From positions 1 to 35,224 of the IMG/VR virus record IMGVR_UViG_3300034190_000172: a DNA stretch of 35,224 nt, one strand, 5' to 3'. This document shows positions 1-34,984 of this stretch, piece after piece. The notes under the pieces are model-generated. The model was given only the letters and a program-made list of their open reading frames with translations, had not been told where the DNA came from and ran no database searches. Position 1 is the stretch's first letter. The number at the start of each line of letters is the position of its first letter. The stretch is from a virus. A program made the position numbers and the translations under genes.

Positions 1-2
1 TC

Positions 3-74
3 GACTCATGGGACAGAGAGCGTCACCTCAAAGGCTTCGCTGTTAATTACAACCCAGCTCGTCACACTGTTTAA
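3..74 (+). CDS. 3' end of an upstream gene (partial)
   Basis: An open frame enters from the left edge and ends at a TAA at 72-74. Only 23 residues are visible, with the sequence ending in NYNPARHTV. They are rich in charged and polar residues, as coding sequence would be, but too short to name. The stop is followed by a hairpin and then the integrase, which fits the end of a gene. It could also be a chance open frame. Confidence 0.4.
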   Translation, partial: DSWDRERHLKGFAVNYNPARHTV

Positions 75-85
75 TCAATCTTACG

Positions 86-99
86 GGGGCGAAAGCCCC
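86..99 (+). terminator. Short GC hairpin with GAAA tetraloop before the integrase
   Basis: GGGGC (86-90) and GCCCC (95-99) pair perfectly around a GAAA loop, the very stable GNRA type. No T-run follows, so it is not a classical intrinsic terminator. It lies between an upstream stop at 74 and the integrase start at 120, and could act as a weak terminator, an mRNA-protecting 5' hairpin or a protein-binding site. Confidence 0.5.
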
Positions 100-119
100 T
101 CCACGTTGGGAGACGTACA

Positions 120-950
120 ATGATACTTAGTCAATTCATCCAAGAAGAAGCATCCCGCCTTTGGGAAGGTAAGCACTTAAATGACGTGCGCTTCCAACTA
201 GGACGCTTCTGTAACTTCAACGGTTACGGCGAACGTGACATTGGTGACTTTAAGCCTCGTGACATCCACTTATTTCAGGATTCACTTATCGAAGCTGGTC
301 TTAAGAAGTCTACGGCCAACCGCTATAACTCAGCGATATCCGCTATCTTTAAACATGCAGTAGAAGAGGAGGTGATCAACCACGCTCCTAAGTTTAAGTG
401 GTTTAAGACTAAGTCTAATCGTGTGCGTTACTTTACTGACAGCGAGTGCGAGCAAGTCATCGAGTTCTTTGGTGAGCATAAGCACTCGTGGATGAAGCAG
501 ATGTTTATCATCGGCATCAATACTGGGATGCGCTTAGGTGAGATCGCACAGATCGGCGATACTGCTCCGGTACAAACAGACTCAGACGGCTCTGTGTGGG
601 TCTACCTGCCTGAAACTAAGAACGGTGACGAACGCTATGTCCCGCTTAATAAAGCCGCTCAGAAGGCCGTACAGGAGCTAGGAGGACGTGTTATTAATCA
701 TTACAGCCATCGTACCTTCTACGATGCATGGGCAGACTGTCGTTATGCTGTGGCTAAGAATGATAGCGAGTTCGTATTCCACGTTTGCCGCCACACTTGT
801 GCGACACGCTTGGCTAATGACCTTGGTGCTCAGACATTGGTCATCGGTAAGATGCTTGGTCACCGTTCGACTAACACTACGCAGAAGTATGTGAAGGCAA
901 AAGGTGCAACTCTGCAAGAGTACGCTAAACTATTAGAGAAGGTGGCATAA
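120..950 (+). CDS. int: Tyrosine recombinase (phage integrase)
   Basis: This 276-residue protein is a tyrosine site-specific recombinase that would integrate the phage genome into, and excise it from, a host attachment site. An N-terminal SAM-like core-binding domain (about 1-95) precedes the catalytic domain. Catalytic residues can be assigned: Arg138 in TGMRLGE, Lys167 in PETKNGDERYVPL, His221 and Arg224 in HVCRH, His248 in LGHRS, and the nucleophile Tyr257 in TQKYVKA. The set is complete, so the enzyme should be active. The ATG at 120 has a GGGAG Shine-Dalgarno nine bases upstream. It lies upstream of the RNA polymerase gene, as integrases do in several marine T7-like phages. No attP or tRNA fragment was found nearby, and no excisionase or repressor is recognisable. 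Confidence 0.95.
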   Translation: MILSQFIQEEASRLWEGKHLNDVRFQLGRFCNFNGYGERDIGDFKPRDIHLFQDSLIEAGLKKSTANRYNSAISAIFKHAVEEEVINHAPKFKWFKTKSNRVRYFTDSECEQVIEFFGEHKHSWMKQMFIIGINTGMRLGEIAQIGDTAPVQTDSDGSVWVYLPETKNGDERYVPLNKAAQKAVQELGGRVINHYSHRTFYDAWADCRYAVAKNDSEFVFHVCRHTCATRLANDLGAQTLVIGKMLGHRSTNTTQKYVKAKGATLQEYAKLLEKVA

Positions 951-958
951 GGGAGCTT

Positions 959-1147
959 ATGGAAATTAAAACCGTAAAAAAGAAGAAAATGGTTTCAATG
1001 TCGAACGCTGACTTAGATCGTATATATCATGCCCTGCTTGGGTACGAAGATGAAAGAGCCTTACGTATTGTATGGACTATTGAGACTGAGCGGCAAGACC
1101 TAATTGACGAATTACACAGGAGCGAAAGCTATGACAGGAAAGGGTAG
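959..1147 (+). CDS. Small early protein, unknown function
   Basis: This 62-residue protein has a lysine-rich start (TVKKKKMV) followed by a mostly helical charged stretch with many Glu, Asp and Arg. A good Shine-Dalgarno (AGGGAG) precedes the ATG by a few bases, and it starts eight bases after the integrase stop, so the two are probably co-transcribed. The size and charge pattern are common among early phage proteins that act on the host. A role as a small DNA-binding excisionase-like factor is possible from its position, but no helix-turn-helix is clear. I do not recognise the family. Confidence 0.65.
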   Translation: MEIKTVKKKKMVSMSNADLDRIYHALLGYEDERALRIVWTIETERQDLIDELHRSESYDRKG

Positions 1148-1598
1148 CGGAAGACGACCATTGCGAGTCGAGTTAAACACGTTCGAGTCCAACTGGGACA
1201 AGATCTTTAAAAACAAAGACGAGTACTGTGATGCTCACGACCGAAAGTATGAAGATGGCGATTGTGTCGATTGTACTCAAGCCATCTCAGAAGGCGAACA
1301 AAGTTCGTATTACACACCAATCCCCAGAGCTATAGTTGAAAGCTTTGGGGGCGATGATAACGGATGGTCAGTTATTGTTGCTGACCTGTTTCCTGACAAG
1401 TGGAGAGCAAAAGAGAACGACATTGTTCTTAGTTGCGAAGTGTCGTGGACACACGCTGAACACGGTCACTACCGAGACACTTTAGACAACCTTGTTGCCT
1501 CAGGTAAACTCGATCACGAGACTGGCTACTACGAACCTGTAGAAGTCCATGAAGACATTATTAACCGCATACAACAGTGGGTAGAGAAGAATGGATAA
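1131..1598 (+). CDS. Hypothetical early protein with KGSGRRP start
   Basis: This is a 155-residue protein. I chose the ATG at 1131 because AGGAG lies nine bases upstream and the protein then starts MTGKGSGRRPL followed by FESNWDKIF. That short N-terminal pattern (KGxxRRP, then F..NWD.IF) recurs in small phage early proteins of unknown function. Cys residues occur in the N-terminal third (a CDAH pair and a CVDC pair), which could bind a metal. The rest is acidic and mixed. Its start overlaps the previous gene by 17 bases, and its stop overlaps the next start (1591), so translation is probably coupled. Function unknown. Confidence 0.75.
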   Translation: MTGKGSGRRPLRVELNTFESNWDKIFKNKDEYCDAHDRKYEDGDCVDCTQAISEGEQSSYYTPIPRAIVESFGGDDNGWSVIVADLFPDKWRAKENDIVLSCEVSWTHAEHGHYRDTLDNLVASGKLDHETGYYEPVEVHEDIINRIQQWVEKNG

Positions 1599-1686
1599 GA
1601 ACGACATGATCGAGATAGCAGCAATACTTACGCTATCATTCATTATAGTTACACTAGCATTACCTGTGTTCATACCACTTTTTTAA
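1591..1686 (+). CDS. 31-residue single-pass membrane peptide
   Basis: The ORF starts at an ATG inside the last codons of the preceding gene and ends at the TAA at 1684-1686. After a charged start (MDKNDMIE) the remaining 23 residues are almost entirely hydrophobic (Ala, Ile, Leu, Phe, Val), ending in PVFIPLF, so it should span the membrane once. Translational coupling through the ATGGATAA overlap is plausible. Such peptides in early phage regions can be toxins, superinfection-exclusion factors or lysis helpers; nothing here chooses among them. A chance ORF remains possible, but the clean hydrophobic composition argues against it. Confidence 0.55.
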   Translation: MDKNDMIEIAAILTLSFIIVTLALPVFIPLF

Positions 1687-1728
1687 ATTGTGGTACGAAA
1701 AAGTATATCCGACAACTGGAGAAAGGAA

Positions 1729-2073
1729 ATGAGAACTAAAGCATTAGAAACAGAAGTATTAGACTACCATCTATCAGACGGTATAACCTTTGGTGAGGCT
1801 ATCAGCTTTTACGATAGCTTCGGTCATCCAGATCTTGATGGTCTGTATGGTTCAGCTCTTAACCAAAAGGAAGCTACCCTACTGATACATAGAGAAGGAT
1901 GGCTCCGCTCTTGTATCAAAGATTACAACAATCCCAATGTCCCATCATCAGCTAAGGATAAAACCGCCGAAGAGGTCGGAAGGTATTTCCTTAACAGTGC
2001 TTTGAACTACATCGAAAGACTTCATGCCGATGATGAATGGCTCAATGATAACCAAAAAGCGTTCAAATTCTGA
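1729..2073 (+). CDS. Hypothetical early protein
   Basis: This is a 114-residue acidic protein of unknown family. The frame is open from a GTG at 1690, but I prefer the ATG at 1729 because a near-perfect Shine-Dalgarno (GGAGAAAGGA) sits immediately before it. The sequence looks globular and mainly helical (ITFGEAISFYDSFG; EVGRYFLNSALNYIERLH). It is the last gene before the putative phage promoter and the RNA polymerase, so it belongs to the early transcript read by host polymerase. Confidence 0.65.
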   Translation: MRTKALETEVLDYHLSDGITFGEAISFYDSFGHPDLDGLYGSALNQKEATLLIHREGWLRSCIKDYNNPNVPSSAKDKTAEEVGRYFLNSALNYIERLHADDEWLNDNQKAFKF

Positions 2074-2091
2074 ACTAAAATAGGGATGGGC

Positions 2092-2114
2092 ATTTGTGTC
2101 CACCCTTTGAGATA
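2092..2114 (+). promoter_or_regulatory. Putative phage RNA polymerase promoter, copy 1
   Basis: The 17-mer CATTTGTGTCCACCCTT at 2091-2107 recurs exactly at 12745-12761. Both copies are followed by a GAGATA element: TGAGATA here, AGGAGATA at the other site. The spacing and layout match promoters of T7/SP6-type polymerases: about 17 bases upstream of a G start (2109 here) followed by a purine-rich GAGA. Both sites are intergenic, and this one lies 29 bases upstream of the polymerase ATG. Assignment as a promoter is inference from position, repetition and similarity in form to the SP6 promoter. Confidence 0.65.
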
Positions 2115-2137
2115 CATCATTGAAGGACATAAGATCT

Positions 2138-4627
2138 ATGACTAAGATTCATGGCACTGAGACAGATGAACTACTACGTGAGTTCAACGCAATAGATAAA
2201 GGACGTGAAAAGTACTTTGACCGAGACGGTAAAGTTACACAGATGTCCATCAAGAATATCCCACATAAGTTAATCAAAGATGCACTACCTATAGTGTCAT
2301 CAGTACTGAATGAGAATCTTGGCGACCTGACACCAAAAGGCAAGGGTCGTCCTTTTTCATGGGTACAAGATCTATCAAGTGTAGACCTAGACCTCATAAG
2401 TTACTTAGGTCTTACCACTTGTATGGATGGCGTTGGTATGCAGAAGTCGATGACTTGGGTACTAACTAAGATCGGTAAACGTATAGAACTAGAGTGCTGG
2501 GCTAAAGAGCTGCGTGAGCAAGACGCACGTCTTTTCGAGCGTATAGAGTCTAAGGTTACTAAGGATCACAACTCTGAGAGATACCGATTAAAGGCAGCTA
2601 CAGCTATTGCTCGTAAAGGTGGTTTTGAGAGATCCAAGTGGTCAGACGAGAGAAGAGTCAAAGCTGCTTCACCAGTATTAAATGCCATCTTAGAGCACTC
2701 CGGCGTATTCGAGGTATGGTCTATTGTTAAGTCAGGTAAGACACAGCGTAGTGTTGGATTGACAGGTGATGCTAGTCATTTGATAGCAGAGCTGATGGCA
2801 GATGAGTCTTGGTGTCAGCCTGTATTTAGCCCGATGATCGTACCACCTAGACCTTGGGAAGACATCGACACTGGTTGCTACATCGATGACGCTTTAAGAG
2901 CACAGATTGATCTTATTAGGTTTGGTAGTCCTTGGCAGAAGAAAAGCTTTAGAGACAGGGACTTAAGAGATGAACCTTATGTTAAGGCAGTTAATGCTAT
3001 TCAGGCTACGCCTTTTGTAGTTAACGAGGATATCTTGGATGCAGTAACTTGGGCTTGGCAGGAGGATATTCAAATACCAAGCTTCCCTCGTAAGTCTTAC
3101 ATAGAGCGCCCTGAGTTCCCTGAGAACTGGGATTACTTAGAGACTGTTGATAAAAAGCTTTGGCGTATCACTGCAAGAGATGTAGTGGTTCGTAACCGTC
3201 AAATTGATGGCGCTAGGGCAGTAATGGCTCAGGACTTAAACACGGCTAACGAGATGCTGATGTTTGAGGAGTTTTACTTACCTCACAACTTTGACTTCCG
3301 TGGTCGTGTGTATCCTATACCTCACTTTAGTCATCATCGTGACAGTCATGTAAAAGCGATGTTCTACTTTAAGAATGCTGAAGTAGTTACACCTGAGAGT
3401 TCTAAGTGGCTGGCGATACATTTAGCTAACACTGGCGACTTCAATAAGATCAGCAAGCAAGGCTTTGATGAACGTGAGATGTGGGTAGAGTTAAACCGTG
3501 ACAGCATTATTGGTGTTGCGCAGGATTACAAAGCTACCATTGGCTGGTGGTCACAAGCAGACAAGCCGTTTGAATTCTTAGCGGCCTGTTTGGAAATGGC
3601 AAGTTACTGGCAAGCACAGCAAGACGGTGAAGCGTTTTACTCAGGCTTACCTTTGGCGCTTGACGGTACTAACTCAGGCATTCAACACTTCAGTGCGTTA
3701 GGTCGTAACATTCAAGATGCCAAGCTTGTAAACTTAGTACCGGCTGACAAGCCTCAAGACATTTACCAACGTGTAGCCGATGCGGTGAAGTTACAAATTG
3801 AAAACGATCCTTGTGCTGAGGCTGATATGTGGAAGGCATACGGCATTAGTCGAAAGACTGTTAAGCGTAACGTGATGACTTATGGTTATTCATCTAAGCA
3901 GTTCGGATTCTTTGAGCAACTTCGTGAAGACGTTATGACACCTCTTACTGACAAGGTTTTACTTAAAGAGTTAGCGGTTCACCCGTTTGGTGAAGATGCT
4001 GGTTACGATGCTGCGAAGTACTTAGCACGTCATAACTGGACTGCTGTCAACGAAGTCATATCATCAGCACAGCAAGGTATGGCATTCTTTCAACAGTTAT
4101 GTGGCGCATTAGCGCATGAAGGTAAGCACTTTCACTGGGTAACGCCTTCGGGCTTTCCTGCTGCACAGTTTTACCCAGCTAACCGCCACAAGAAGATTAA
4201 GCTTTATCTTTATGACCGTGCGGCTGAGATGCCTGTACGTTCTCAGGTAACGCTTAGAGAGTTAGACAGTAGCCGAGTAGACAAGCGTAAAAGCAAGACA
4301 GCGATATCACCTAATGTGATCCATTCGCTAGATTCAGCGCATCTTCTCAGAACTGTGCTAGACTGTATCGATGGTGAGGAAGAGCAGATGTCGTTTTTCT
4401 TAATACACGACAGCTTTGCTACAACAGCCAACAAGACGCAGAAGATGTACGAAGCAATTAGGTCTACGTTCATCGATATTTATGACAGCGAAAGCTGGTA
4501 CGAAAACTTACTTTCTCAGGCTAAAAGGCAATTGGATAACCCAGACAGTAATCGGGTTCCAGAGCTGCCAGAGATGGGCGAGCTTAATTTAGCTCAGATC
4601 GCTGACAGTAAATACTGCTTCAGCTAA
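2138..4627 (+). CDS. Single-subunit phage RNA polymerase (T7 gp1-like)
   Basis: This 829-residue enzyme, slightly shorter than the 883 of T7, would transcribe phage genes from its own promoters. Motifs in order: FDFRGRVYP (about 385), LALDGTNSGIQHFSA with catalytic Asp509 (T7 Asp537), KRNVMTYGYSSKQFGF with Lys576 and Tyr584 (T7 Lys631, Tyr639), and HDSF with catalytic Asp758 (T7 Asp812). The C-terminus YCFS corresponds to the T7 FAFA foot. The segment where T7 carries its promoter-specificity loop (about 685-715) is diverged, so the promoter should differ from that of T7. I place the start at ATG 2138, preceded by AAGGA; an upstream TTG at 2120 is less likely. The putative promoter just upstream suggests self-amplifying expression. 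Confidence 0.97.
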   Translation: MTKIHGTETDELLREFNAIDKGREKYFDRDGKVTQMSIKNIPHKLIKDALPIVSSVLNENLGDLTPKGKGRPFSWVQDLSSVDLDLISYLGLTTCMDGVGMQKSMTWVLTKIGKRIELECWAKELREQDARLFERIESKVTKDHNSERYRLKAATAIARKGGFERSKWSDERRVKAASPVLNAILEHSGVFEVWSIVKSGKTQRSVGLTGDASHLIAELMADESWCQPVFSPMIVPPRPWEDIDTGCYIDDALRAQIDLIRFGSPWQKKSFRDRDLRDEPYVKAVNAIQATPFVVNEDILDAVTWAWQEDIQIPSFPRKSYIERPEFPENWDYLETVDKKLWRITARDVVVRNRQIDGARAVMAQDLNTANEMLMFEEFYLPHNFDFRGRVYPIPHFSHHRDSHVKAMFYFKNAEVVTPESSKWLAIHLANTGDFNKISKQGFDEREMWVELNRDSIIGVAQDYKATIGWWSQADKPFEFLAACLEMASYWQAQQDGEAFYSGLPLALDGTNSGIQHFSALGRNIQDAKLVNLVPADKPQDIYQRVADAVKLQIENDPCAEADMWKAYGISRKTVKRNVMTYGYSSKQFGFFEQLREDVMTPLTDKVLLKELAVHPFGEDAGYDAAKYLARHNWTAVNEVISSAQQGMAFFQQLCGALAHEGKHFHWVTPSGFPAAQFYPANRHKKIKLYLYDRAAEMPVRSQVTLRELDSSRVDKRKSKTAISPNVIHSLDSAHLLRTVLDCIDGEEEQMSFFLIHDSFATTANKTQKMYEAIRSTFIDIYDSESWYENLLSQAKRQLDNPDSNRVPELPEMGELNLAQIADSKYCFS

Positions 4628-4643
4628 CTTACGAGGACAACCG

Positions 4644-4853
4644 ATGCACCCACGAGAGAGGGTGTTAGGGGTAGCACTTTTAAAGAAAAACAAGGGAGAG
4701 CCTATTCCGTTAGATTTACTAGCGGAGTTGGACAAGTACGGCTTGGACGTATCGGAGTTTGTGGACTTACCACTATCGACCGACCAGCCACTAATCACAA
4801 TAGAACAGTTTAATTTGGAGACCAACTATGAGCGCACAAAAAGAAACATTTAG
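4644..4853 (+). CDS. Small hypothetical protein between RNA polymerase and SSB
   Basis: This 69-residue protein starts 17 bases after the polymerase stop, with ACGAGGA upstream, and overlaps the SSB start by 26 bases. The sequence is mixed (VLGVALLKKNKGEPIPLDLLAELDKYG) with no recognisable motif. Position, ribosome binding site and overlap support a real gene. Its place between RNA polymerase and SSB is where T7 also carries small regulators such as gp2, but no similarity to gp2 is visible. Confidence 0.7.
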   Translation: MHPRERVLGVALLKKNKGEPIPLDLLAELDKYGLDVSEFVDLPLSTDQPLITIEQFNLETNYERTKRNI

Positions 4854-5367
4854 CACCCCAGTAGGAACAGCACGATATCCGTGGTTAAAAGAGCCGGACA
4901 CTGCGTTCGGTCAGCAAGCTTACAAGTGTATGCTTATCTTAAGCCCTACTGATGCACAGCCTATCATCACTAAGATTGAGGCTATGAAGACACTGTTTGG
5001 TGCTAAGGCTGATAAAGCCATGCTGCCTTATGAAGAAGACGCAGAGACTGGTGATATCATTCTCAAGACTAAAACTGGTTTCGAGCCGCTGTTCTTTGAC
5101 AGCCAAGGCAACCCAGTAGTCTCTGGCTCACTCCCTGATATTTGGGGCGGTAGTCAGCTTAAGTTAGGTGGTATGATCTCACCTTGGAATAAGAATGGTA
5201 AGATGGGTATCACTTTGCAGCTTGGTAAAGTTATGATTGTTGAAGCTAAAGGGCCGACAGGTGGTGGTTCTGTAGATTCAGGTTTTGAGGCTGTAGAGGG
5301 CGGCTTTGTGATGGAAGAAGGTGCAACCTTCGAGGAACCATCAACTGATGCGCCATCGTACCTTTAG
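4828..5367 (+). CDS. Single-stranded DNA-binding protein (T7 gp2.5-like)
   Basis: This 179-residue protein has the length and plan of phage gp2.5-type SSBs: an OB-fold body and an unstructured acidic tail. The body contains the conserved type of segments around ARYPWLKEPDT (about 14-24), TKTGFEPLFFDSQGN (about 82-96) and an IWGGSQLKLGG strand. The tail (last about 22 residues) has five acidic residues and no basic ones, but it ends in SYL rather than the terminal Phe of T7 gp2.5, the residue that contacts polymerase and helicase. The gene lies in the canonical place between RNA polymerase and endonuclease I. Start ATG 4828 is preceded by GGAG. Confidence 0.85.
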   Translation: MSAQKETFSTPVGTARYPWLKEPDTAFGQQAYKCMLILSPTDAQPIITKIEAMKTLFGAKADKAMLPYEEDAETGDIILKTKTGFEPLFFDSQGNPVVSGSLPDIWGGSQLKLGGMISPWNKNGKMGITLQLGKVMIVEAKGPTGGGSVDSGFEAVEGGFVMEEGATFEEPSTDAPSYL

Positions 5368-5788
5368 AAGTGCGTATGCAAGAGGCTATCGTTCTGGCTT
5401 AGAGGACAAAGTAGCGACACAGATTGAGGGTATGAACTTCCCTGTAATCTACGAGAAGGAAAAGATTAAGTTTATTCATCCAGCTCGTAACGCTACTTAC
5501 ACGCCAGATTTTAAAATCACGCTAGGAGACGGGCAGTGGTTTTACGTTGAAACAAAAGGTATCTTCTCAGTCGCTGACAGGCAGAAACACCTCCTAGTCA
5601 GAGAACAGAATCCTGAGATAGAGATCCGGTTCGTATTCAGCAACAGCAGGTCAAAGCTCTATAAGAAAAGCCCAACAAGTTATGCGGATTGGTGCGGAAA
5701 GCACGGATTCATGTACGCTGATAAGCTTATCCCAGAGCAATGGTTTTTGTCAGGGTCGTCTCCCACGCCTGACAAGAAGAAGGCTTAA
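5348..5788 (+). CDS. Endonuclease I, Holliday-junction resolvase (T7 gp3-like)
   Basis: This 146-residue enzyme resolves branched DNA and degrades host DNA to feed phage replication. It matches T7 gp3 along its length: FRSGLEDKV-type start (RSGLEDKV, Glu19), YEKEKIKF (Glu36 or Glu38), YTPDF (Asp54), VETKG (Glu68, Lys70), then KHLLVREQNPE, RFVFSNSRSKLYKKSPTSYADWC and ADKLIPEQW. All catalytic carboxylates are present. I chose ATG 5348, which overlaps the SSB stop by 20 bases; a GTG at 5321 would add nine unlikely residues. Translation is probably coupled to the SSB. Confidence 0.95.
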   Translation: MRHRTFRSAYARGYRSGLEDKVATQIEGMNFPVIYEKEKIKFIHPARNATYTPDFKITLGDGQWFYVETKGIFSVADRQKHLLVREQNPEIEIRFVFSNSRSKLYKKSPTSYADWCGKHGFMYADKLIPEQWFLSGSSPTPDKKKA

Positions 5789-5811
5789 ATTACCCCCTCA
5801 GATTAAGCCTT

Positions 5812-5852
5812 GGGAAGGGCGGCACTCAACTCCTTCGAGTGTCGTCCTACTC
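5812..5852 (+). terminator. Long stem-loop between endonuclease I and primase-helicase
   Basis: A 16-base arm at 5812-5827 pairs with 5837-5852, with one A-A mismatch and three G-U pairs, around a 9-base loop. It fills most of the 98-base gap after endonuclease I. What follows is A-rich (CTAAACTAAAACTAAAAAC), not T-rich, so it is more like an RNase III processing site or a stabilising hairpin than an intrinsic terminator. Confidence 0.5.
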
Positions 5853-5886
5853 CCTAAACTAAAACTAAAAACAAGGAGACATTCTC

Positions 5887-7476
5887 ATGCAAGATACAAC
5901 TGAAGACTCAACATTTATACGACACGAAGCTTGTGAAAACTGCGGCTCAAGTGACGGTAAAGCTTTATATTCAACAGGTAGTACTTATTGTTTCGCATGT
6001 GACGACTATGGCCGTGGTGCGAACGATACCGTTGCGCCTACTGCAACAATTAAAACAAATTCACAACTATGGGCCGGTACAACTCAGGGTGTCCGTGAAC
6101 GTGGTTTATCAGAAGAAAGCTGTCGTAAGTTTGGATACCTGACGTGTGTTACAAGCGAAGGCACCGTATGGGCAGCAAACTATAGAAACACAGACGGCTT
6201 GATCGTAGCTCAAAAGTTAAGGACTGCTGACAAAGCATTTAGCGTTGTTGGCGAAGGCAAGAAGCTTACGTTCTTCGGACAGCACTTATGGAACAAAGGC
6301 CGGAAGCTCGTGATCACTGAAGGTGAGATCGATGCAATGAGTGTCAGCCAGATGCAAGGGCATAAGTGGCCTACAGTATCATTACCTGCTGGAGCTGCTG
6401 GAGCTAAGAGAGCTATTAAAGACAACTGGGATTACTTAGACGGCTTTGAAGAAATCATACTCATGTTTGACATGGATGAGGCTGGTCAGGATGCAGCTCG
6501 TGATGTTGCCGAGATGCTCCCATTGGGTAAATCAAAGATAGCCGCTTTGCCGTGTAAAGACGCTAATGATTGTTTGATGCAAGGTAAGACTGCTGATGTA
6601 ATTAACGCTGTATTTCAAGCAAGAGACTACCGACCTGATGGTATCGTATCAGCGTCAGACCTTCGTGAAGCAATCACGCAGCCTGATGAAGTCTCGACAG
6701 TCACATATCCATATAAAGAGTTAAACGCTATCACGAGAGGATTACGCAAGGGTGAGCTGGTTACGGTCACCGCTGGTAGTGGCATAGGTAAGACAACACT
6801 ATGCTCAGAGATTGCCATGCACCTGCACAAGTCAGGAGAGCGGCTTGGCATGATCATGCTAGAGGAATCTAACAAGCAAACCCTGCGTAATCTGATCGGG
6901 ATACACAAAGACGTTAACCTCACAGTTAACCCAGATTCATTATCTAAAGAACAACTGGAAGGGGCATTTGATGAACTATTTACAGGAGAAAATCAACTCT
7001 ATCTCTACGATCACTTTGGTTCGACTGAGGTGGATACTATATGTAGCCGCATTCGTTTTCTTCACTCAGTGCTTGATGTTGATTGGATCGTGCTTGATCA
7101 CATAAGCATAATGATCTCAGGCTTGGCGACTACCGATGAGCGTAAGCTTATTGACTTAGCCATGAGCCGCTTAAGAATGTTAGTACAAGAGCTGGGCATA
7201 GGTCTTATCCTAGTCTCTCACTTGAGAAGACCGGAAGGCGACAAAGGTCACGAGGACGGCGCTAAGGTAAGACTAGGTCAGCTTCGTGGTAGTCATGCGA
7301 TAGCTCAACTGTCTGACATTTGTATATCGATGGGCGTTGATCCAGAAAATCCTAACAGCAACACACGACAGCTCGGTGTCTTAAAGAACCGCTTCACAGG
7401 TCAGACAGGGTTCGCTGGTAACATCAGCTACACACCTGAGACCGGCAGATTAATCGATCAAGTATTACAATTTTAA
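5887..7476 (+). CDS. DNA primase-helicase (T7 gp4-like)
   Basis: This 529-residue bifunctional protein makes RNA primers and unwinds DNA at the fork. The zinc-binding domain has Cys16/Cys19 and Cys35/Cys38 (CENCGSSDG and CFAC). The TOPRIM primase centre has Glu145 in ITEGEIDAM and acidic residues in MFDMDEAG (Asp195, Asp197). The RecA-like helicase has Walker A AGSGIGKTT (296-304), DHISIM as Walker B, and SHLRRPEG and RGSHAIAQLSD further on. It ends TGRLIDQVLQF, exactly where T7 gp4 continues into its acidic 17-residue tail, so that tail is absent although a terminal Phe remains. AAGGAGA precedes the ATG. Confidence 0.97.
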   Translation: MQDTTEDSTFIRHEACENCGSSDGKALYSTGSTYCFACDDYGRGANDTVAPTATIKTNSQLWAGTTQGVRERGLSEESCRKFGYLTCVTSEGTVWAANYRNTDGLIVAQKLRTADKAFSVVGEGKKLTFFGQHLWNKGRKLVITEGEIDAMSVSQMQGHKWPTVSLPAGAAGAKRAIKDNWDYLDGFEEIILMFDMDEAGQDAARDVAEMLPLGKSKIAALPCKDANDCLMQGKTADVINAVFQARDYRPDGIVSASDLREAITQPDEVSTVTYPYKELNAITRGLRKGELVTVTAGSGIGKTTLCSEIAMHLHKSGERLGMIMLEESNKQTLRNLIGIHKDVNLTVNPDSLSKEQLEGAFDELFTGENQLYLYDHFGSTEVDTICSRIRFLHSVLDVDWIVLDHISIMISGLATTDERKLIDLAMSRLRMLVQELGIGLILVSHLRRPEGDKGHEDGAKVRLGQLRGSHAIAQLSDICISMGVDPENPNSNTRQLGVLKNRFTGQTGFAGNISYTPETGRLIDQVLQF

Positions 7477-7490
7477 CTGGGGGAGAGGGG

Positions 7491-9290
7491 ATGAGATTTG
7501 TATTCGATATAGAGACAGACGGGTTAATACCTGAGCTGACTAAGATCCACTGCATAGAGTTGATCCATGTTGAAACTGGGACAGCTTACAGCTTTACACC
7601 TGCCAATGTTCAGGCAGGTCTTGATATGCTGGAGAAGGCTAACGAGATCATAGGCCACAACATCATTGGCTTTGATATACCTGCTATCCAGAAGCTTAAG
7701 CCAGACTGGAAGCCGCAGGGCAAGGTTACAGACACACTGGTGCTATCACAGCTACTTAAGGGTGATATCAAGAACTCAGACTTTGACTACGACAGAGAGT
7801 ACGGTTTCGGCATAGGCGTTACCACTGGATTACCTAAGCGGTTATGCGGTAGTCACTCTTTGAAAGCTTGGGGCTATCGTCTCAATGAGCACAAAGAAGA
7901 GATCCAGACAGATTGGAAAGTGTGGACACCAGAGATGCAAAAGTATTGCGCTCAGGATGTCGCAGTAAATCATAAGCTCTTCAACCACTTCGACACACTT
8001 ATTAAAGACAGCGAATGGTCACAGGATTCAATAGATCTTGAGCATCAGGCAGCAGAGCTTTGTTACCGTATTGGCAACAATGGCTGGTCGTTTGATGAGA
8101 AGAAAGCCGGTAAGTTATATGCTGAGCTGGCAAAAGAAAGGTCAATACTCGACACCGAGCTACAGACATTATTCGAGCCTTGGGAAGTATCAACATGGTT
8201 CACGCCAAAAGTAAATAACAAGCGATACGGTTATGAGAAAGGCGTACCTTTTGAGAAGAAGAAGCCTATTGAATTCAATCCTCAGTCACGCAGACATATC
8301 GAACGCTGTCTTAAAGAAAAGTATGGGTGGAAGCCCAAGAAGATGACGAACGGTGGTCACGCCCAGATCGATGAGACCATCTTAGGTGCTCTACATTATC
8401 CTGAGGCCAAGAAGCTGGCTCGTATGTTTCTACTGAACAAACGACTTGGACAACTGGCAGAAGGCAAACAGGCTTGGCTTAAGTTAGCTGATAAAGACGG
8501 TCGTATCAGACACCAGATTGTTCCCTGTGGCACAGTAACAGGCCGTGCTGCTCACAGACGACCAAACTTAGGTCAGGTTCCTAGAGCTTCAGCTCCGTTT
8601 GGTAAACAGTGCAGGGATCTATTCACAGTGCCTGAGGGCTACTCGCTACTCGGTAGTGACCTCTCTGGTATCGAGCTGAGAATACTGGCGCACTATCTAT
8701 CGTTTACCGATGGTGGTGCTTACGCAAAGCAGATCCTCAAAGGTGACATCCACACGTTCAACCAGAAAGCCGCAGGTCTTGAAACCCGTGATCAAGCTAA
8801 GACGTATATTTATGCGCTTTGCTACGGGGCAGGTGATGCCATGATGGGTAAGATCGTTGGTGGTAACGCTAAAGATGGCAAGAAGCTCAAGGAGAAGTTC
8901 TTCAAGAGTATGCCAGCATTCCAAGAGCTACAGAATGGAGTGCAGGGTGCAGTTAGCCGAGGTTGGCTTAAGAGCATCGATGGTCGCAGGGTCAGGCTCA
9001 GATCAGCACACAGTGCGCTTAATGCGTTACTACAGTCTGCTGCTGGGTGTGTCTCTAAACGTTGGATCTGTCTTATTGATAAAGAATTAAAAGCCCGTGG
9101 ATTGGACAAGGACTGTTACATGGTCGCTTGGGTTCACGATGAGGTACAAATAGCTGTTAAGGAAGGGCTAGAAGATTATGTCGGTCATCTCACTGGAAGC
9201 TGCGCGAAAAAGGTTGGGGAAGAGTTTAATATCCAACTCCCCATCGAGTCAGAATTCTCCTTCGGTAAAACATGGGCAGACTCCCACTAA
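7491..9290 (+). CDS. Family A DNA polymerase with 3'-5' exonuclease (T7 gp5-like)
   Basis: This 599-residue replicative polymerase is about 100 shorter than T7 gp5. The exonuclease domain is intact: FDIETDG (Asp6, Glu8), NIIGFD (Asp62), YCAQD (Tyr152, Asp156). Polymerase motif A is SDLSGIELR (Asp390), motif B KTYIYALCYGAG (Lys437, Tyr441) and motif C WVHDEVQ (His549, Asp550). Between the palm segments containing FTPK (about 240) and FNPQSRRHI only about 22 residues remain where T7 has its roughly 76-residue thioredoxin-binding domain, so it probably does not use thioredoxin as T7 does. Tyr441 corresponds to E. coli Phe762. GGGGAGAGGGG lies right before the ATG. Confidence 0.97.
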   Translation: MRFVFDIETDGLIPELTKIHCIELIHVETGTAYSFTPANVQAGLDMLEKANEIIGHNIIGFDIPAIQKLKPDWKPQGKVTDTLVLSQLLKGDIKNSDFDYDREYGFGIGVTTGLPKRLCGSHSLKAWGYRLNEHKEEIQTDWKVWTPEMQKYCAQDVAVNHKLFNHFDTLIKDSEWSQDSIDLEHQAAELCYRIGNNGWSFDEKKAGKLYAELAKERSILDTELQTLFEPWEVSTWFTPKVNNKRYGYEKGVPFEKKKPIEFNPQSRRHIERCLKEKYGWKPKKMTNGGHAQIDETILGALHYPEAKKLARMFLLNKRLGQLAEGKQAWLKLADKDGRIRHQIVPCGTVTGRAAHRRPNLGQVPRASAPFGKQCRDLFTVPEGYSLLGSDLSGIELRILAHYLSFTDGGAYAKQILKGDIHTFNQKAAGLETRDQAKTYIYALCYGAGDAMMGKIVGGNAKDGKKLKEKFFKSMPAFQELQNGVQGAVSRGWLKSIDGRRVRLRSAHSALNALLQSAAGCVSKRWICLIDKELKARGLDKDCYMVAWVHDEVQIAVKEGLEDYVGHLTGSCAKKVGEEFNIQLPIESEFSFGKTWADSH

Positions 9291-9555
9291 TGCGTATTTT
9301 GAGAACCTCGCAATGGAGGCAGTTGCGCACAAGGTCAAGGCAGTTCTCGATGAAGCTTGGCAGGGAAACTTCACCACCAAGTCAGACTTCGCAAGACGAC
9401 AAGCCGACTGGGTCGGACTTGCCGCCTCTCTCGGATACATCACCGTCCTCGCAAGTGAAGAGTCATGGACAAGATACTGGATGATTACCGAGGAAGGCCT
9501 CGCTCAGTTACAGGAAATTAATGTTATTTTATTAGGGGAAGACTATGAAGATTGA
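9178..9555 (+). CDS. Small protein overlapping the end of DNA polymerase
   Basis: This 125-residue ORF starts 113 bases inside the polymerase gene in another frame and overlaps the exonuclease start by 11 bases. The N-terminus MSVISLEAARKRLGK resembles the start of many small phage proteins (xVISLExARK), which favours the long form. An internal ATG at 9313 would give 81 residues and avoid the overlap. The C-terminal half (SDFARRQADWVGLAASLGYIT and WMITEEGLAQL) looks like a small winged-helix-type fold, but this is a guess. Function unknown; it lies inside the replication operon. Confidence 0.7.
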   Translation: MSVISLEAARKRLGKSLISNSPSSQNSPSVKHGQTPTNAYFENLAMEAVAHKVKAVLDEAWQGNFTTKSDFARRQADWVGLAASLGYITVLASEESWTRYWMITEEGLAQLQEINVILLGEDYED

Positions 9556-10315
9556 TGAGTTACTACCAGACGGTCGCATCACTATGTTGATCGATGCTGA
9601 TATCTACCTGTTCCGTGCCTGTTCCGCTGCTGAATTCGAGCATGATTGGGGTGACGATGTATGGTCACTCACCACTGACCTCAAAGAAGCTCAGGCTTAC
9701 TTTAAGAAGAGCATCGAAGAGTTCCAACAGGAGTTAGGCATCGAGGACTTTCTGCTGTGTATTACTTCGACTGATAACTTCAGAAAAGACGTACTGCCTG
9801 AGTACAAAAGCAACCGCAAAGGCACACGCAAGCCAGTCGGATATAAAGCTCTCGTTGATTGGGCAAAAGAAGAATATCCCTACTTCATGCTTCCGAAGCT
9901 AGAAGCTGACGATGTCATGGGTATTCTCCAGACGACCAAGGGTAAAGAGACCTACATTGTCTCGGATGATAAAGACATGATGACCATAGCAGGTCGTCTG
10001 TATCAACCTCAGAAGAAGATTAAGCTTAACCTGACTGAGACAGAAGCTAACCAGTGGTTTTACCGTCAGACGCTCACAGGTGACACTGTGGATGGCTATG
10101 CAGGTATCAAAGGTATCGGCCCTAAGAAAGCTGATGGCATTATCGCTAGTAGCTGCACATGGCGTAACGTAGAGGCCACTTATCTCAAGCACGGTTACAC
10201 TCAGAAAGAAGCACTCCAGCAAGCTAGGTGTGCTCGGATCTGTCGATCTACAGAGTACGATTTAACCACCAACACACTTAAACTATGGGAACCAAGCCAT
10301 GACGAACATAATTGA
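9545..10315 (+). CDS. 5'-3' exonuclease, flap-nuclease type (T7 gp6-like)
   Basis: This 256-residue nuclease removes RNA primers and helps degrade host DNA and recombine phage DNA. It has the PIN/FEN layout: IDADIYLFRA near residue 16 (metal-binding Asp), YKSNRKGTRKP, LEADDVMG (acidic cluster), VSDDKDMMTI (acidic pair), and the helix-hairpin-helix region TGDTVDGYAGIKGIGPKKA. All are strongly like T7 gp6. AGGGGAAG precedes the ATG. The start overlaps the small upstream gene, and its stop overlaps the DUF3310 gene start by 17 bases, so this block is tightly coupled. Confidence 0.95.
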   Translation: MKIDELLPDGRITMLIDADIYLFRACSAAEFEHDWGDDVWSLTTDLKEAQAYFKKSIEEFQQELGIEDFLLCITSTDNFRKDVLPEYKSNRKGTRKPVGYKALVDWAKEEYPYFMLPKLEADDVMGILQTTKGKETYIVSDDKDMMTIAGRLYQPQKKIKLNLTETEANQWFYRQTLTGDTVDGYAGIKGIGPKKADGIIASSCTWRNVEATYLKHGYTQKEALQQARCARICRSTEYDLTTNTLKLWEPSHDEHN

Positions 10316-10550
10316 AAGCCCAGCGCATTACGCAATCCATAACATTGAGCCGATCACTTTCATAATGGGCAACAACCTCCCGTTCTGGAAGGGCAACATC
10401 ATCAAGTACTGCATGAGAGCAGGTTACAAGCATTATGACGGCCAAGACTCTGTAGAGAGCGAGATAACAGACCTGATGAAGGTCATCCGATACGCTGAGA
10501 TGCGAATAAACACTCTTGAAGGGAGAAGCCCAATCCATGACGACGAATAG
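10299..10550 (+). CDS. DUF3310-type small protein
   Basis: This is an 83-residue protein. SPAHYAIHNIEPITFI, followed by FWKGNIIKYCMRAGYK and SEITDLMKVIRYAEMRI, is the pattern of DUF3310. T7 gp1.7, a nucleotide kinase, carries the same domain, so a role in nucleotide supply is possible. That fits its position directly in front of the ribonucleotide reductase, whose start it overlaps by 14 bases. The activity of a DUF3310 domain alone is not established, and the kinase idea is inference from the T7 protein. Confidence 0.85.
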   Translation: MTNIIESPAHYAIHNIEPITFIMGNNLPFWKGNIIKYCMRAGYKHYDGQDSVESEITDLMKVIRYAEMRINTLEGRSPIHDDE

Positions 10551-12438
10551 CGGATTACCAACTGATTACCAAACATTCATAGCAACCTCACGCTACTGTC
10601 GTTGGTTGCCTAAGAAGAACCGTAGAGAGACATGGCCCGAAACCGTGGATCGCTTCTGTGAAAACATATTACAGCGAGTATCACTGACTAAAGAAGAGAT
10701 CGAGGAGTGCCGAGAGGCTGTTGTTAACCTTGATGTGATGCCCTCTATGAGAGCCGTGATGACCGCTGGTAAAGCAGCAGACAGAGACAACACAAGTATC
10801 TACAACTGCTCTTATATGGCTGTAGACAGCACCAGAGCCTTTGATGAGGCTATGTTCATACTATTGTGTGGCACTGGTGTAGGCTTCAGTGTCGAAAAGA
10901 AGTACACACAGAAGTTACCACAGGTTCCGAGTGAGTTCCGTGATAACGGTGACGTACTTGTAGTAGCTGACAGCAAAGAAGGCTGGGCTAGGTCATTCCG
11001 TAAGCTTATCGCTATGCTTTACACTGGTGATGTACCTAAGTGGGACACAAGCAAGGTAAGACCTGCTGGTTCACGACTTGAGACCTTCGGAGGTAGAGCA
11101 TCTGGCGCTGGGCCATTAGAGCAATTGTTTGTATATACAATCGATGTGTTCAAAGAAGCAGCCGGTAGACAGCTCACACCTTTTGAGTGTCATTCGATCA
11201 TGTGTAAGGTCGGTGAGGTAGTGGTCGTTGGTGGTGTCCGTAGATCAGCAATGATCAGCTTAAGTGACCTGCAAGACGATAAGATGAGATTAGCTAAGAG
11301 CGGTAACTGGTGGGAAACACGACCAGAGATGGCATTGGCTAACAACTCGGTAAGCTTTACCCGTAAGCCTGACATGATGTCGTTTCTCGATGAGTGGACA
11401 GCACTGGTCAAGAGTGGCTCAGGTGAACGAGGTATATTCAACCGTGAAGCCAGCCAGAACCAAGTAGCACGGTTCGACAGGAGAGATCCAAGCCCTGAGT
11501 TTGGTACTAACCCTTGCTCAGAGATCGTACTACGCCCTAACCAGTTCTGTAATCTATCTGAGGTCGTGGTGAGAGCCAGTGACACAGAAGAAGACCTGAA
11601 GCGTAAAGTACGAATTGCAGCCATTCTAGGCACAGTACAGGCCACATTCACTCATATGCCTTACCTTCGTAAGATATGGCAGAAAAACACGTCAGAAGAG
11701 GCTTTGTTAGGTCTCAGCCTGACTGGGATCATGGACAATGAGATTACTGCTAATCCTGATGGACGACTCCTTAATGTTCTTAGAGATATATCTGTTTCGG
11801 TTAATGCAGAATACGCTGACCGCTTTGGAATTCAACGCTCAGCGAGCATCACCTGTGTTAAGCCTTCTGGCACTGTCAGCCAGCTTGTTGATGCTGCTTC
11901 TGGTATTCATACACGTCACTCTGAGTATTATATTCGTACTATTCGTGGTGATAAGAAAGATCCTCTCACCAAGCTTATGGTAGACCAAGGCATCCCTGCT
12001 GAGGACTGTGTGATGAAGCCTGACACAACGACTGTGTTCAGCTTCCCTGTGAAGTCACCAGACAATGCCATCGTAAGAGACGATAGATCAGCTCTTGAGC
12101 AGCTTGAGACGTGGAAGACCTACGCTCTTGAGTGGTGTGAACATAAGCCATCCGTGACGATATCCGTGAGAGATCATGAGTGGATGGAGGTAGGAGCTTG
12201 GGTGTATAAGCACTTCGATATCATCAGTGGCATTAGCTTCTTACCACACTCCAACCACACCTATCAGCAAGCGCCCTATCAGGAGTGTACCAAGGATGAA
12301 TACATAGCATTGAAGGCAGTGATGCCTGAGAAGGTAGATTGGACGAAGCTGAGTTCTTATGAGTCCGAAGATAACACTTCAGGGTCGCAGACATTGGCTT
12401 GCTCGGGTGATGCCTGTGAAGTCGTTGACCTTACTTAA
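10537..12438 (+). CDS. nrdJ: Class II (B12-dependent) ribonucleotide reductase, monomeric type
   Basis: This 633-residue enzyme reduces ribonucleotides to deoxyribonucleotides using adenosylcobalamin to make a thiyl radical. It follows the monomeric Lactobacillus leichmannii type. NCSY holds Cys91 (Cys119 there), NPCSEI holds Asn325, Cys327 and Glu329 (Asn406, radical Cys408, Glu410), and QFCNL holds Cys338 (Cys419). The tail ACSGDAC has Cys622 and Cys627, matching the shuttle pair 731/736 in spacing. KPSGTVSQL, the phosphate-binding segment, is also present. It is about 100 residues shorter than the lactobacillus enzyme. I chose ATG 10537 (GAAGGGAG upstream) over a TTG at 10516. Oxygen-independent dNTP supply is typical of marine phages; host cobalamin is required. 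Confidence 0.95.
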   Translation: MTTNSGLPTDYQTFIATSRYCRWLPKKNRRETWPETVDRFCENILQRVSLTKEEIEECREAVVNLDVMPSMRAVMTAGKAADRDNTSIYNCSYMAVDSTRAFDEAMFILLCGTGVGFSVEKKYTQKLPQVPSEFRDNGDVLVVADSKEGWARSFRKLIAMLYTGDVPKWDTSKVRPAGSRLETFGGRASGAGPLEQLFVYTIDVFKEAAGRQLTPFECHSIMCKVGEVVVVGGVRRSAMISLSDLQDDKMRLAKSGNWWETRPEMALANNSVSFTRKPDMMSFLDEWTALVKSGSGERGIFNREASQNQVARFDRRDPSPEFGTNPCSEIVLRPNQFCNLSEVVVRASDTEEDLKRKVRIAAILGTVQATFTHMPYLRKIWQKNTSEEALLGLSLTGIMDNEITANPDGRLLNVLRDISVSVNAEYADRFGIQRSASITCVKPSGTVSQLVDAASGIHTRHSEYYIRTIRGDKKDPLTKLMVDQGIPAEDCVMKPDTTTVFSFPVKSPDNAIVRDDRSALEQLETWKTYALEWCEHKPSVTISVRDHEWMEVGAWVYKHFDIISGISFLPHSNHTYQQAPYQECTKDEYIALKAVMPEKVDWTKLSSYESEDNTSGSQTLACSGDACEVVDLT

Positions 12439-12551
12439 GGTTAGCGTTAAAAGTCTCAAAGCGATTCTTTAAAGGAGTAAGGCTATTAGGATAGGATCAG
12501 TCAGCTGTGTAACAAGAGAGACTATTACTAATCGCCATATTAATTACGCTT

Positions 12552-12658
12552 AATGGAGGTTGCGGGGTGATACCTACGACCTTCAATAGCTAAGAACCTC
12601 CATTGACGATGTAACAAGACATCTAAGAGTGTATCCCAGCCAATCGTAGGCATCACCC
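12552..12658 (+). ncRNA. Interlocked inverted repeats, possible RNA pseudoknot
   Basis: Arm A (12552-12561, AATGGAGGTT) is perfectly complementary to A' (12595-12604). Arm B (12565-12579) is complementary to B' (12644-12658) at 14 of 15 positions. The order A-B-A'-B' means both stems together form an H-type pseudoknot, or else two mutually exclusive hairpins. A small extra hairpin (GATGT/ACATC, 12608-12623) sits in the A'-B' loop. It lies 113 bases after the reductase stop and upstream of the putative late promoter, so it would be the 3' end of the replication transcript. It could equally act as DNA. Confidence 0.5.
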
Positions 12659-12745
12659 AAAAGGCTAGTACCCAAGACTCATCCTGTCAAGATATACCCT
12701 GTACGTGATTATGTACCGTGTGAGACAGAAACCTAACCGTAGACC

Positions 12746-12770
12746 ATTTGTGTCCACCCTTAGGAGATAA
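12746..12770 (+). promoter_or_regulatory. Putative phage RNA polymerase promoter, copy 2
   Basis: This is the second exact copy of the 17-mer found before the RNA polymerase gene, followed here by AGGAGATAA. With the start at G12763, the ATTT at the upstream end and the TAG-GAGA around the start fall in the same places as in the SP6 promoter. It faces the virion genes and would give a leader of almost 490 bases before the first fibre gene, crossing the 33-bp repeats. Confidence 0.65.
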
Positions 12771-12848: not shown

Positions 12849-12914
12849 GGTGTAAGCAGGGGTGAATACTTAGGTGATCTTGGTGTAAGCAGGGGTGAAT
12901 ACTTAGGTGATCTT
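12849..12914 (+). repeat. 33-bp perfect tandem repeat, two copies
   Basis: Copies at 12849-12881 and 12882-12914 are identical, and five more bases of a third copy (GGTGT) follow. Each unit begins GGTGTAAGCAGGGG and ends GGTGATCTT. Only two copies and no spacers are present, so this is not a CRISPR. Iteron-like binding sites or a recent slippage duplication are the likely readings. Confidence 0.9.
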
Positions 12915-13249
12915 GGTGTTACTTATGTCCCGATTTGTAATGAATAGATATCACCCTTGACCATCAATTATCAGACACACCCAAGATATCACAGCAGTTC
13001 AAGCCTGAGCATCAACGGATAATACATCCGATGACCTATGATCCCTAGTGATATCAATGACTTAGGTCGTATACGCTGGTACTTTAGGGACTCTAGGGAC
13101 TCCTAGCCCAGATTCTGACCCCCACTGCCTAAACTAATCAATGGTTTCAAATAATGACCTTAAAGGGTTCTTCTTGTTGTTGTTGTTATTAGGCTTTCAA
13201 GAGAAGCTACCCAGATTCAACACATTAGATATTGCATAGGTATTAACCA

Positions 13250-14494
13250 ATGGAAGTTACAACAACTAAACACATCAGTAAGCTGGACGTAGCTCAGCCT
13301 TCAGGCAGCTCACCTATCAGTGAGGCAGACGACCACCTAAGATTCATCAAAGACTGCATCAAGACGACCTTCTCAGGTATCACCTCAGTAGGCTCAGGTA
13401 ACGTCACAGCAGATGCAGCAGCTTTAAACAAGCTCGATGGATACACAGGTACGACTGGTGATTTAAACACCATAGCCGGTGCTGTATCCTCAGGTCTTAC
13501 TGTCTCAGATATTGCTAAGCTTGCGGGTGTAAGTGCCACTTCTGCCCAGCTTAATAATACAGCTAATATACCAGCGAATACGAATACTGCCTTAGGTGCG
13601 AAGGCTAACCTAGCTTCTCCTACGCTTACTGGGACTCCTAAAGCTCCTACACAAGCCGCTAGTGATAACTCGACTAAGATTGCTACTACGGCGTATGTTA
13701 CAGCCAAGACCTCAGGTATACCTACCAGTAGTAACCTAGCTGCTACCAATGCTGCTGTAGCCTTGAATACGGACTATAGAGCCTCAAGTACTCTCGCAAT
13801 AGCGGGTAAGGCTAATATAAATAGTCCTGCGCTTACTGGGAATCCTACAGCTACTACACAAGCCGCTACTGATAACTCGACTAAGATTGCTACTACTGCC
13901 TTTGTTACGGGTGCCTTGGGTGCGAAGGCTAACCTAGCTTCTCCTGCGCTTACTGGGACTCCTACAGCTCCTACAGCAGGGGCGGCTGTAAATACCACCC
14001 AGATTGCTACTACTGCCTTTGTTCAGGGCTTGTTAGGTGGTTATCCTACCACGGCTACTTTTAATGCTGGGATAACCTCTGCTACAACACCCAGTGCAAG
14101 TGTAAGTACTGCTGGTAAAATAGAGATTGCTACTACGTCAGAAGCAGCGGCTGGGACAAGTGCAGATAAAGCCTTAACACCGTCGAATTTACTAGGGGTA
14201 GCTGTCGATAATCAGTTTATCAATAGTGTTAACAAGCAAGGCTCTGTGACTATTGCGGGTGTAGGGATTAAATGGGGTATAGGGACAAGTACTACAGGCA
14301 ATTCAGAGTCTTTCACTTATGACACAGCTTTCCCTAATTTTACAAGTGTAGTCATGCTTACCCGAGACACCAATGCTGGGGTATCATCGCTTAACGTTAA
14401 CAGCAGGAATAAGTCTGGCTTCACTATCGATAGGGATAACAACACATACGGTGCTGGTAATTATGATTTTTATTTCCTCGCTATAGGCGGTTAA
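13250..14494 (+). CDS. Tail fibre protein with 36-residue repeats and gp53-like tip
   Basis: This 414-residue fibre protein would bind the host surface. The N-terminus (PISEADDHLRFIKDCIKTTF, about 20-41) is a typical virion-anchoring segment. Three 36-residue repeats follow at 13592-13699, 13799-13906 and 13916-14023, each with the pattern KAN..SP.LTG.P.A.T and ending ..IATTA.V; this is the common phage fibre shaft repeat. The C-terminal part (IKWGIGTSTTGN and YDFYFLAIGG) has the look of the gp53-like fibre tip domain. The DNA of the repeats is nearly identical, so recombination between units is easy. The start lies in ATTAACCAATG, shared with two other appendage genes. Confidence 0.88.
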   Translation: MEVTTTKHISKLDVAQPSGSSPISEADDHLRFIKDCIKTTFSGITSVGSGNVTADAAALNKLDGYTGTTGDLNTIAGAVSSGLTVSDIAKLAGVSATSAQLNNTANIPANTNTALGAKANLASPTLTGTPKAPTQAASDNSTKIATTAYVTAKTSGIPTSSNLAATNAAVALNTDYRASSTLAIAGKANINSPALTGNPTATTQAATDNSTKIATTAFVTGALGAKANLASPALTGTPTAPTAGAAVNTTQIATTAFVQGLLGGYPTTATFNAGITSATTPSASVSTAGKIEIATTSEAAAGTSADKALTPSNLLGVAVDNQFINSVNKQGSVTIAGVGIKWGIGTSTTGNSESFTYDTAFPNFTSVVMLTRDTNAGVSSLNVNSRNKSGFTIDRDNNTYGAGNYDFYFLAIGG

Positions 14495-34669: not shown

Positions 34670-34687
34670 AATCACAGGAATTAACCA

Positions 34688-34984
34688 ATGGTAAACTTAC
34701 AAGCAGGTTCAATCTTTAAGCCAGCGATGGGCGATGGGTCAAACGGAGTTGTACAAGTCCATACAGATGGCACTAACGATGTTACGTTGTATGGTAGCGT
34801 CGATGGTGTCACCTTCACTTTAATCAAAACATATGCGGTAGACACTGACGTTATCGAAGAGGTAGTCTTGTGTCCATTCCTTGCTATCTCTGCTGACACT
34901 GCTGCGACTGTAGCGGCTGGAAGTTTAGCTACGACTTCACTTGGCGCATCTACTGTTAAACTGGACGAAACTAGAGGGCGATAG
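34688..34984 (+). CDS. Small beta-rich virion protein (probable)
   Basis: This 98-residue protein is made of short beta strands (VVQVHTDGTNDVTLYGSVDGVTFTLIKTY) resembling a small decoration or fibre-associated domain. It follows the S74 fibre with an identical start context, and two bases separate its stop from the next ORF. Function unknown; appendage role inferred from context. Confidence 0.65.
   Translation: MVNLQAGSIFKPAMGDGSNGVVQVHTDGTNDVTLYGSVDGVTFTLIKTYAVDTDVIEEVVLCPFLAISADTAATVAAGSLATTSLGASTVKLDETRGR

Follow-up and report, generated by a model that had tools for sequence, protein, structure and literature searches.

Among the promoters of T7-type single-subunit RNA polymerases, those of T3, SP6 and K11 have well-known sequences, which are used in the alignments described below. 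In the cyanophage Syn5, a single promoter serves more than 37 kb (PMC3950665), so a genome with few promoters is feasible. LUZ100 is a T7-like phage with temperate features and an integrase upstream, and its phage promoters have been mapped before and after the polymerase gene; it has eight phage-specific promoters, with the sequence ATTACCACACAG..TGGA (PMC10134795). In the isolated temperate-type roseophages CRP-804 and CRP-114, the present analysis also finds motifs of their own that recur directly ahead of the polymerase gene and directly behind it, as candidate promoters, and the published account of these two phages makes no mention of promoters.

The DNA analyzed here (the window) is a whole IMG/VR record of 35,224 bases, which is linear, has no end repeats and is probably a genome fragment. 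Its gene order is integrase, T7-type RNA polymerase, ssDNA-binding protein, endonuclease, primase/helicase, DNA polymerase, exonuclease and ribonucleotide reductase, followed by a gap and then by the tail fiber and virion proteins, terminase, portal, scaffold, capsid and tail genes. The main features are:

120 to 950, plus strand: tyrosine integrase gene, downstream of a third copy of the element described below, which is left of the window.
2138 to 4627, plus strand: T7-type single-subunit RNA polymerase gene, the presumed reader of the element (PHROG 414, E=3.8e-189; Pfam RNA_pol).
4828 to 12438, plus strand: replication block, from the ssDNA-binding protein to ribonucleotide reductase, presumably transcribed from copy 1.
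13250 to 34669, plus strand: virion and packaging block, from the tail fiber to the tail, presumably transcribed from copy 2.

The RNA polymerase gene (2138 to 4627) is intact, is in the same genome as the element and matches the T7 RNA polymerase in the PDB with E=1.9e-85. The nearest isolates are remote, the identity of the polymerases being at most 32% among the matches listed. The DNA polymerase is 46% identical to that of roseophage CRP-804, the terminase 38% to that of roseophage CRP-7 and the ribonucleotide reductase 67% to that of roseophage CRP-5, and a marine Rhodobacteraceae-type host is plausible. The virion block at 13250-34669 departs from the T7 order, and its capsid and terminase are nearest to those of non-T7 phages (Salmonella 7-11 type, Stx-type podoviruses and CRP-7), so that it looks as if a T7-type transcription and replication module has been joined to another virion module.

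The 17-mer CATTTGTGTCCACCCTT, which the first-pass annotation had put forward as a candidate promoter, is indeed present as two exact copies, at 2091-2107 and 12745-12761, both on the plus strand, and no further match with up to three mismatches is found on either strand elsewhere in the 35,224-base window. The predicted promoters are:

2092 to 2114, plus strand: putative promoter copy 1, positions -17 to +6, with the predicted start at G2109 and the ATG of the RNA polymerase gene 29 nt downstream.
12746 to 12769, plus strand: putative promoter copy 2, positions -17 to +7, with the predicted start at G12763, ahead of the virion block and with a leader of about 490 nt.

Their placement ahead of the RNA polymerase gene and in the gap that precedes the virion genes agrees with the ORF map. 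Copy 1 is located after an ORF that ends at 2073 and before the polymerase start (ATG at 2138; TTG at 2120), and copy 2 is in a gap of 811 bp that separates the ribonucleotide reductase ORF, ending at 12438, from the tail gene at 13250. Both are outside the forward ORFs of at least 90 aa, as are 6.9% of the positions of the window. The claim that each copy is followed by GAGATA at the expected start needs an adjustment. GAGATA is present after both, but copy 1 continues as T/GAGATA (TTT/GAGATA) and copy 2 as A/GGAGATA (TTA/GGAGATA), where the slash precedes the predicted start; it begins at 2109 in the former and at 12764 in the latter, and hence its spacing differs by one base. It is G2109 and G12763 that are in the same register.

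The 17-mer pair alone is weak evidence, because a second exact 17-mer pair, GAAGCAGGTAAGTTTGA, occurs in the window at 27017 and 33845, within coding sequence. A chance repeat would be in agreement with this, and also with the presence of the exact 17-mer in an unrelated sequence family (L003, L005-L008), which has no matching polymerase and was set aside. The homologous positions at which the element is kept in several lineages, and its recovery by a matrix that is blind to the window, speak against chance.

When IMG/VR is scanned with the exact 17-mer, near-identical contigs and the more distant G002 are obtained; a profile search adds clade 2 (L023-L028 and L030), and a further pattern scan adds clade 3 (G011). 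The looser-pattern matches L066-L069 and L071 have no matching polymerase and were rejected. The polymerase of clade 2 is 52% identical to that of the window and its copies are of the AGTTTTGTCCACCCTTAGAGA type. In L028 there are six copies, two after the lysis genes and one each before the integrase, before the polymerase, after the polymerase and before the tail gene. G011, with 40,514 bases and a polymerase of 49% identity, is effectively complete, since the overlapping contig G009 joins both of its ends. It has exactly four copies, at 26283 (early), 27958 (before the polymerase), 30480 (after the polymerase) and 39497 (before the tail gene), all of them intergenic and on the coding strand, with only 11% of the sequence being outside forward ORFs of at least 90 aa. 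The fragment L064 again has the copy before the virion genes, and L029 (polymerase 42% identical) has a single weaker match, before its polymerase gene.

Across lineages whose polymerases are 39-52% identical, the element is thus found at homologous sites, namely ahead of the early region, ahead of the polymerase (G002, L028, L050, G011 and L010) and in the gap that precedes the homologous tail gene (L028, G011, L064 and, inverted with its block, G002). The first-pass annotation had made its promoter claim depend on related phages having the motif at the same places, and it is present both before the polymerase and before the virion genes. The copies are near-identical, are located in gaps before gene blocks and are oriented with these blocks. 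In G002 (polymerase 39-43% identical, depending on the aligner), one copy precedes the polymerase on the plus strand, from 13662 onwards, and the other precedes the virion block on the minus strand, from 9106 downwards. The virion block of G002 is inverted with respect to that of the window and the element is inverted too, upstream of the homologue of the window tail gene; this co-inversion, in which a directional element moves with its operon, is the strongest single evidence. Two tRNA-Arg-like stretches of G002 were considered as inversion sites and rejected, their similarity being too weak.

The same data bear on whether the element could be the binding site of another phage regulator, a repressor or activator acting next to promoters, instead of a polymerase recognition site. 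The element does occur in regulatory gaps near the integrase, in the contig L011 it adjoins a consensus sigma-70 promoter, and MarR-type regulators are encoded in the same region of related temperate-type phages. The element is, however, non-palindromic and always oriented along the downstream gene, it inverts with the inverted virion block, it ends in a T7-type start sequence and it co-occurs with the polymerase across lineages, all of which makes a regulator site very unlikely. The polymerases associated with the motif have in common the specificity-loop pattern LxDR...R[ST]Q, from which the polymerases of motif-free Sphingomonas-type prophages deviate. A tie between this pattern and promoter recognition is only suggestive, since common ancestry would explain it as well. 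The motif is not found in alphaproteobacterial prophages with polymerases of 34-39% identity and therefore is not a feature of all relatives.

The consensus over the lineages is AgTTtTGTCCACCCTTa/GAGA, which can also be written as nAgTTtTGTCCACCCTTa/gagaA. Its geometry is of the T7 type, with 17 nt followed by the predicted start nucleotide, which is most often G, and an AGA-rich initial sequence; position +1 is T or A in the L011 copy, in the virion copy of G002 and in some copies of L028 and G011. A weight matrix made from all lineages but the window's own clade ranks the predicted starts at 12763 (32.2 bits) and 2109 (31.4 bits) first in the window. The third-ranked site scores 12.9 bits and is antisense within a gene, and the best site of 30 shuffled windows scores 20.0 bits. 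When G011, clade 2 or G002 is left out in turn, the own sites of each top its list. It is this conservation in relatives, as captured by the blind matrix scores, and not the pair itself that places the element beyond chance. Judged by these sequence comparisons, the idea of a chance repeat is already refuted, its probability being practically negligible.

The statement that there is no third intergenic copy holds for the window but not for its clade. The contig L011 matches window bases 1-5002 with 99.9% identity, continues for another 1,651 bases on the left, across a lysozyme gene, and has a third copy, so that the clade has at least three. Features of this early region and its counterparts are:

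L011, 1232 to 1254: third copy of the element, with ATTTGTGTCCACCCTA at 1232-1247, about 420 bp beyond the left end of the window.
L011, 1293 to 1358, minus strand: Asn-like tRNA stretch, probable attP.
L028, 7897 to 7973, minus strand: Met tRNA stretch, probable attP.
G011, about 26,390 to 26,450, minus strand: Tyr-like tRNA stretch, recognized by eye, probable attP.

The third copy is preceded by a terminator-like hairpin (1165-1194) and is followed directly by a perfect TTGACA-N18-TATAAT sequence (12/12 for sigma-70) at 1257-1286. At neither window copy is there a strong sigma-70 consensus (TTGACA-N16-18-TATAAT), and the 9/12 match that overlaps copy 1 is of a kind found at background frequency. 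In L011, L028 and G011, an opposite-strand tRNA or half of one is located between the early putative phage promoter and the early and integrase genes; in L011 and L028, as also in G011 when judged by eye, the early copy is flanked by a late terminator and the attP-like tRNA sequence. If these stretches are attP sites, integration might sever the phage promoter (in L011 also the sigma-70 promoter) from the early genes and the polymerase, helping to silence the prophage, and excision would restore the lytic circuit; this is a tentative and rather doubtful proposal. The clade 2 integrase frame (L028, 8526-9355) looks split in two when compared with the window integrase.

It could also be considered that the element acts at the RNA level, as a terminator, processing hairpin or leader, as copy 1 can form a stem with its own upstream flank. 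However, the pairing flanks are not conserved, other copies lack that hairpin and those of G002 fold weakly; the distance to the next gene varies from about 30 to about 700 nt; and in L011 and L028 terminator hairpins that are separate from the element are located directly upstream of the early copies. The hairpin was therefore rejected as a common feature of the copies, and an RNA-level signal is extremely unlikely.

The leaders have repeats of their own, and an Rfam search of them finds only tRNAs. Upstream of copy 2, at 12551-12658, there are two long inverted repeats with interleaved arms (AATGGAGGTT/AACCTCCATT and GGGTGATACCTACGA/TCGTAGGCATCACCC; z of about -2.2 for the gap), for which a pseudoknot or alternative fold is possible. 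The leader that runs from copy 2 to the tail gene has a 33-bp unit in two perfect tandem copies at 12849-12914, and the L028 leader has a different short-period repeat (20913-20999). A 19-nt sequence containing ATTAACCAATGG occurs with 89% identity at 13235-13253 and 34673-34691, where it covers the start codon of the tail gene (13250) and that of a 98-aa ORF (34688), respectively.

Since distant relatives have the repeated element ahead of the same gene blocks, even when one block is flipped, it is very probably a promoter that the phage's own T7-type single-subunit RNA polymerase recognizes. The comparison gives its sequence, orientation and positions, and its co-occurrence with the polymerase in four lineages; from these we infer that the window polymerase recognizes it, where transcription starts exactly and in what order the events take place. 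In the proposed circuit, the host RNA polymerase would first read the early region from the consensus sigma-70 promoter that adjoins the third copy, and this early transcription would read through into the polymerase gene. From copy 1, the new polymerase would then amplify its own expression and that of the replication genes, and from copy 2 it would transcribe the virion block. The suggestion that the whole genome is driven from very few promoters stands as far as their being few is concerned, with the number now being three known in the clade, including the left end, and four in the complete 40-kb relative. The best reading is that each genome has three or four putative promoters, one of them for the virion genes, and that the polymerase would amplify its own expression.

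Such a polymerase and its element would make a new, apparently orthogonal pair for studying how T7-type specificity changes, and several naturally diverged polymerases (39-52% identical) that apparently read nearly the same promoter can help to locate the recognition residues. The circuit further suggests that three or four promoters within about 40 kb would be enough for a T7-type transcription module to drive virion genes of non-T7 order, in this case in uncultivated marine viruses with integrases. The element is not found in 50,697 phage records, where only chance-level matches and no confident isolate match occur. There is also no report of it in the literature searched, most subscription journals being outside that scope, so that this absence is not proof of novelty.

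When compared with the T7, SP6 and K11 promoters, the element is similar in having 17 nt before a predicted G start, an AT-rich end, a conserved middle and a location ahead of gene blocks of the presumed cognate polymerase; it differs in its GTCCACCC middle and in the TTA that precedes the start, in place of GACTCACTATA or GTGACACTATA, and, compared with T7, in its far fewer copies. SP6 and K11, in their best ungapped alignments, take up the T7 register unprompted, with G at +1. The SP6-like ends noted earlier for copy 2 are borne out, 13 of 23 positions matching in the same register (shuffle frequency 0.003), and K11 shares 11 of 21 positions with the clade 2 consensus. No T7 or SP6 promoter with up to three mismatches is present in the window, which sets the element apart from the SP6/T7 class proper. 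The Syn5 promoter, ATTGGGCACCCGTAA, has a similar CACCC-T-A core (10 of 16 positions agree when offset by 1 nt), and very few promoters per genome are common to both systems. The Syn5 sequence itself is absent from the window, where one match with three mismatches, within a gene, is at chance level; the Syn5 site is inside its polymerase gene, whereas the sites of the element are intergenic, and the Syn5 polymerase is 25% identical to that of the window. LUZ100 has the same autogenous logic, but its promoter sequence differs and its polymerase is 28% identical. CRP-804 shares CACCCTTA with the element; the CRP-804 and CRP-114 sequences are otherwise different, with polymerases of 27% identity. 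In CRP-804 (L088), divergent motif copies at 40616 (minus strand) and 40655 (plus strand) head a minus-strand block, with others at 3675, 6232 and 8175, and this motif set is a candidate promoter set in an isolate. The likeness to every known promoter is, from these alignments, only partial, and the element appears to be a new specificity within a well-known kind, seen so far only in uncultivated viruses.
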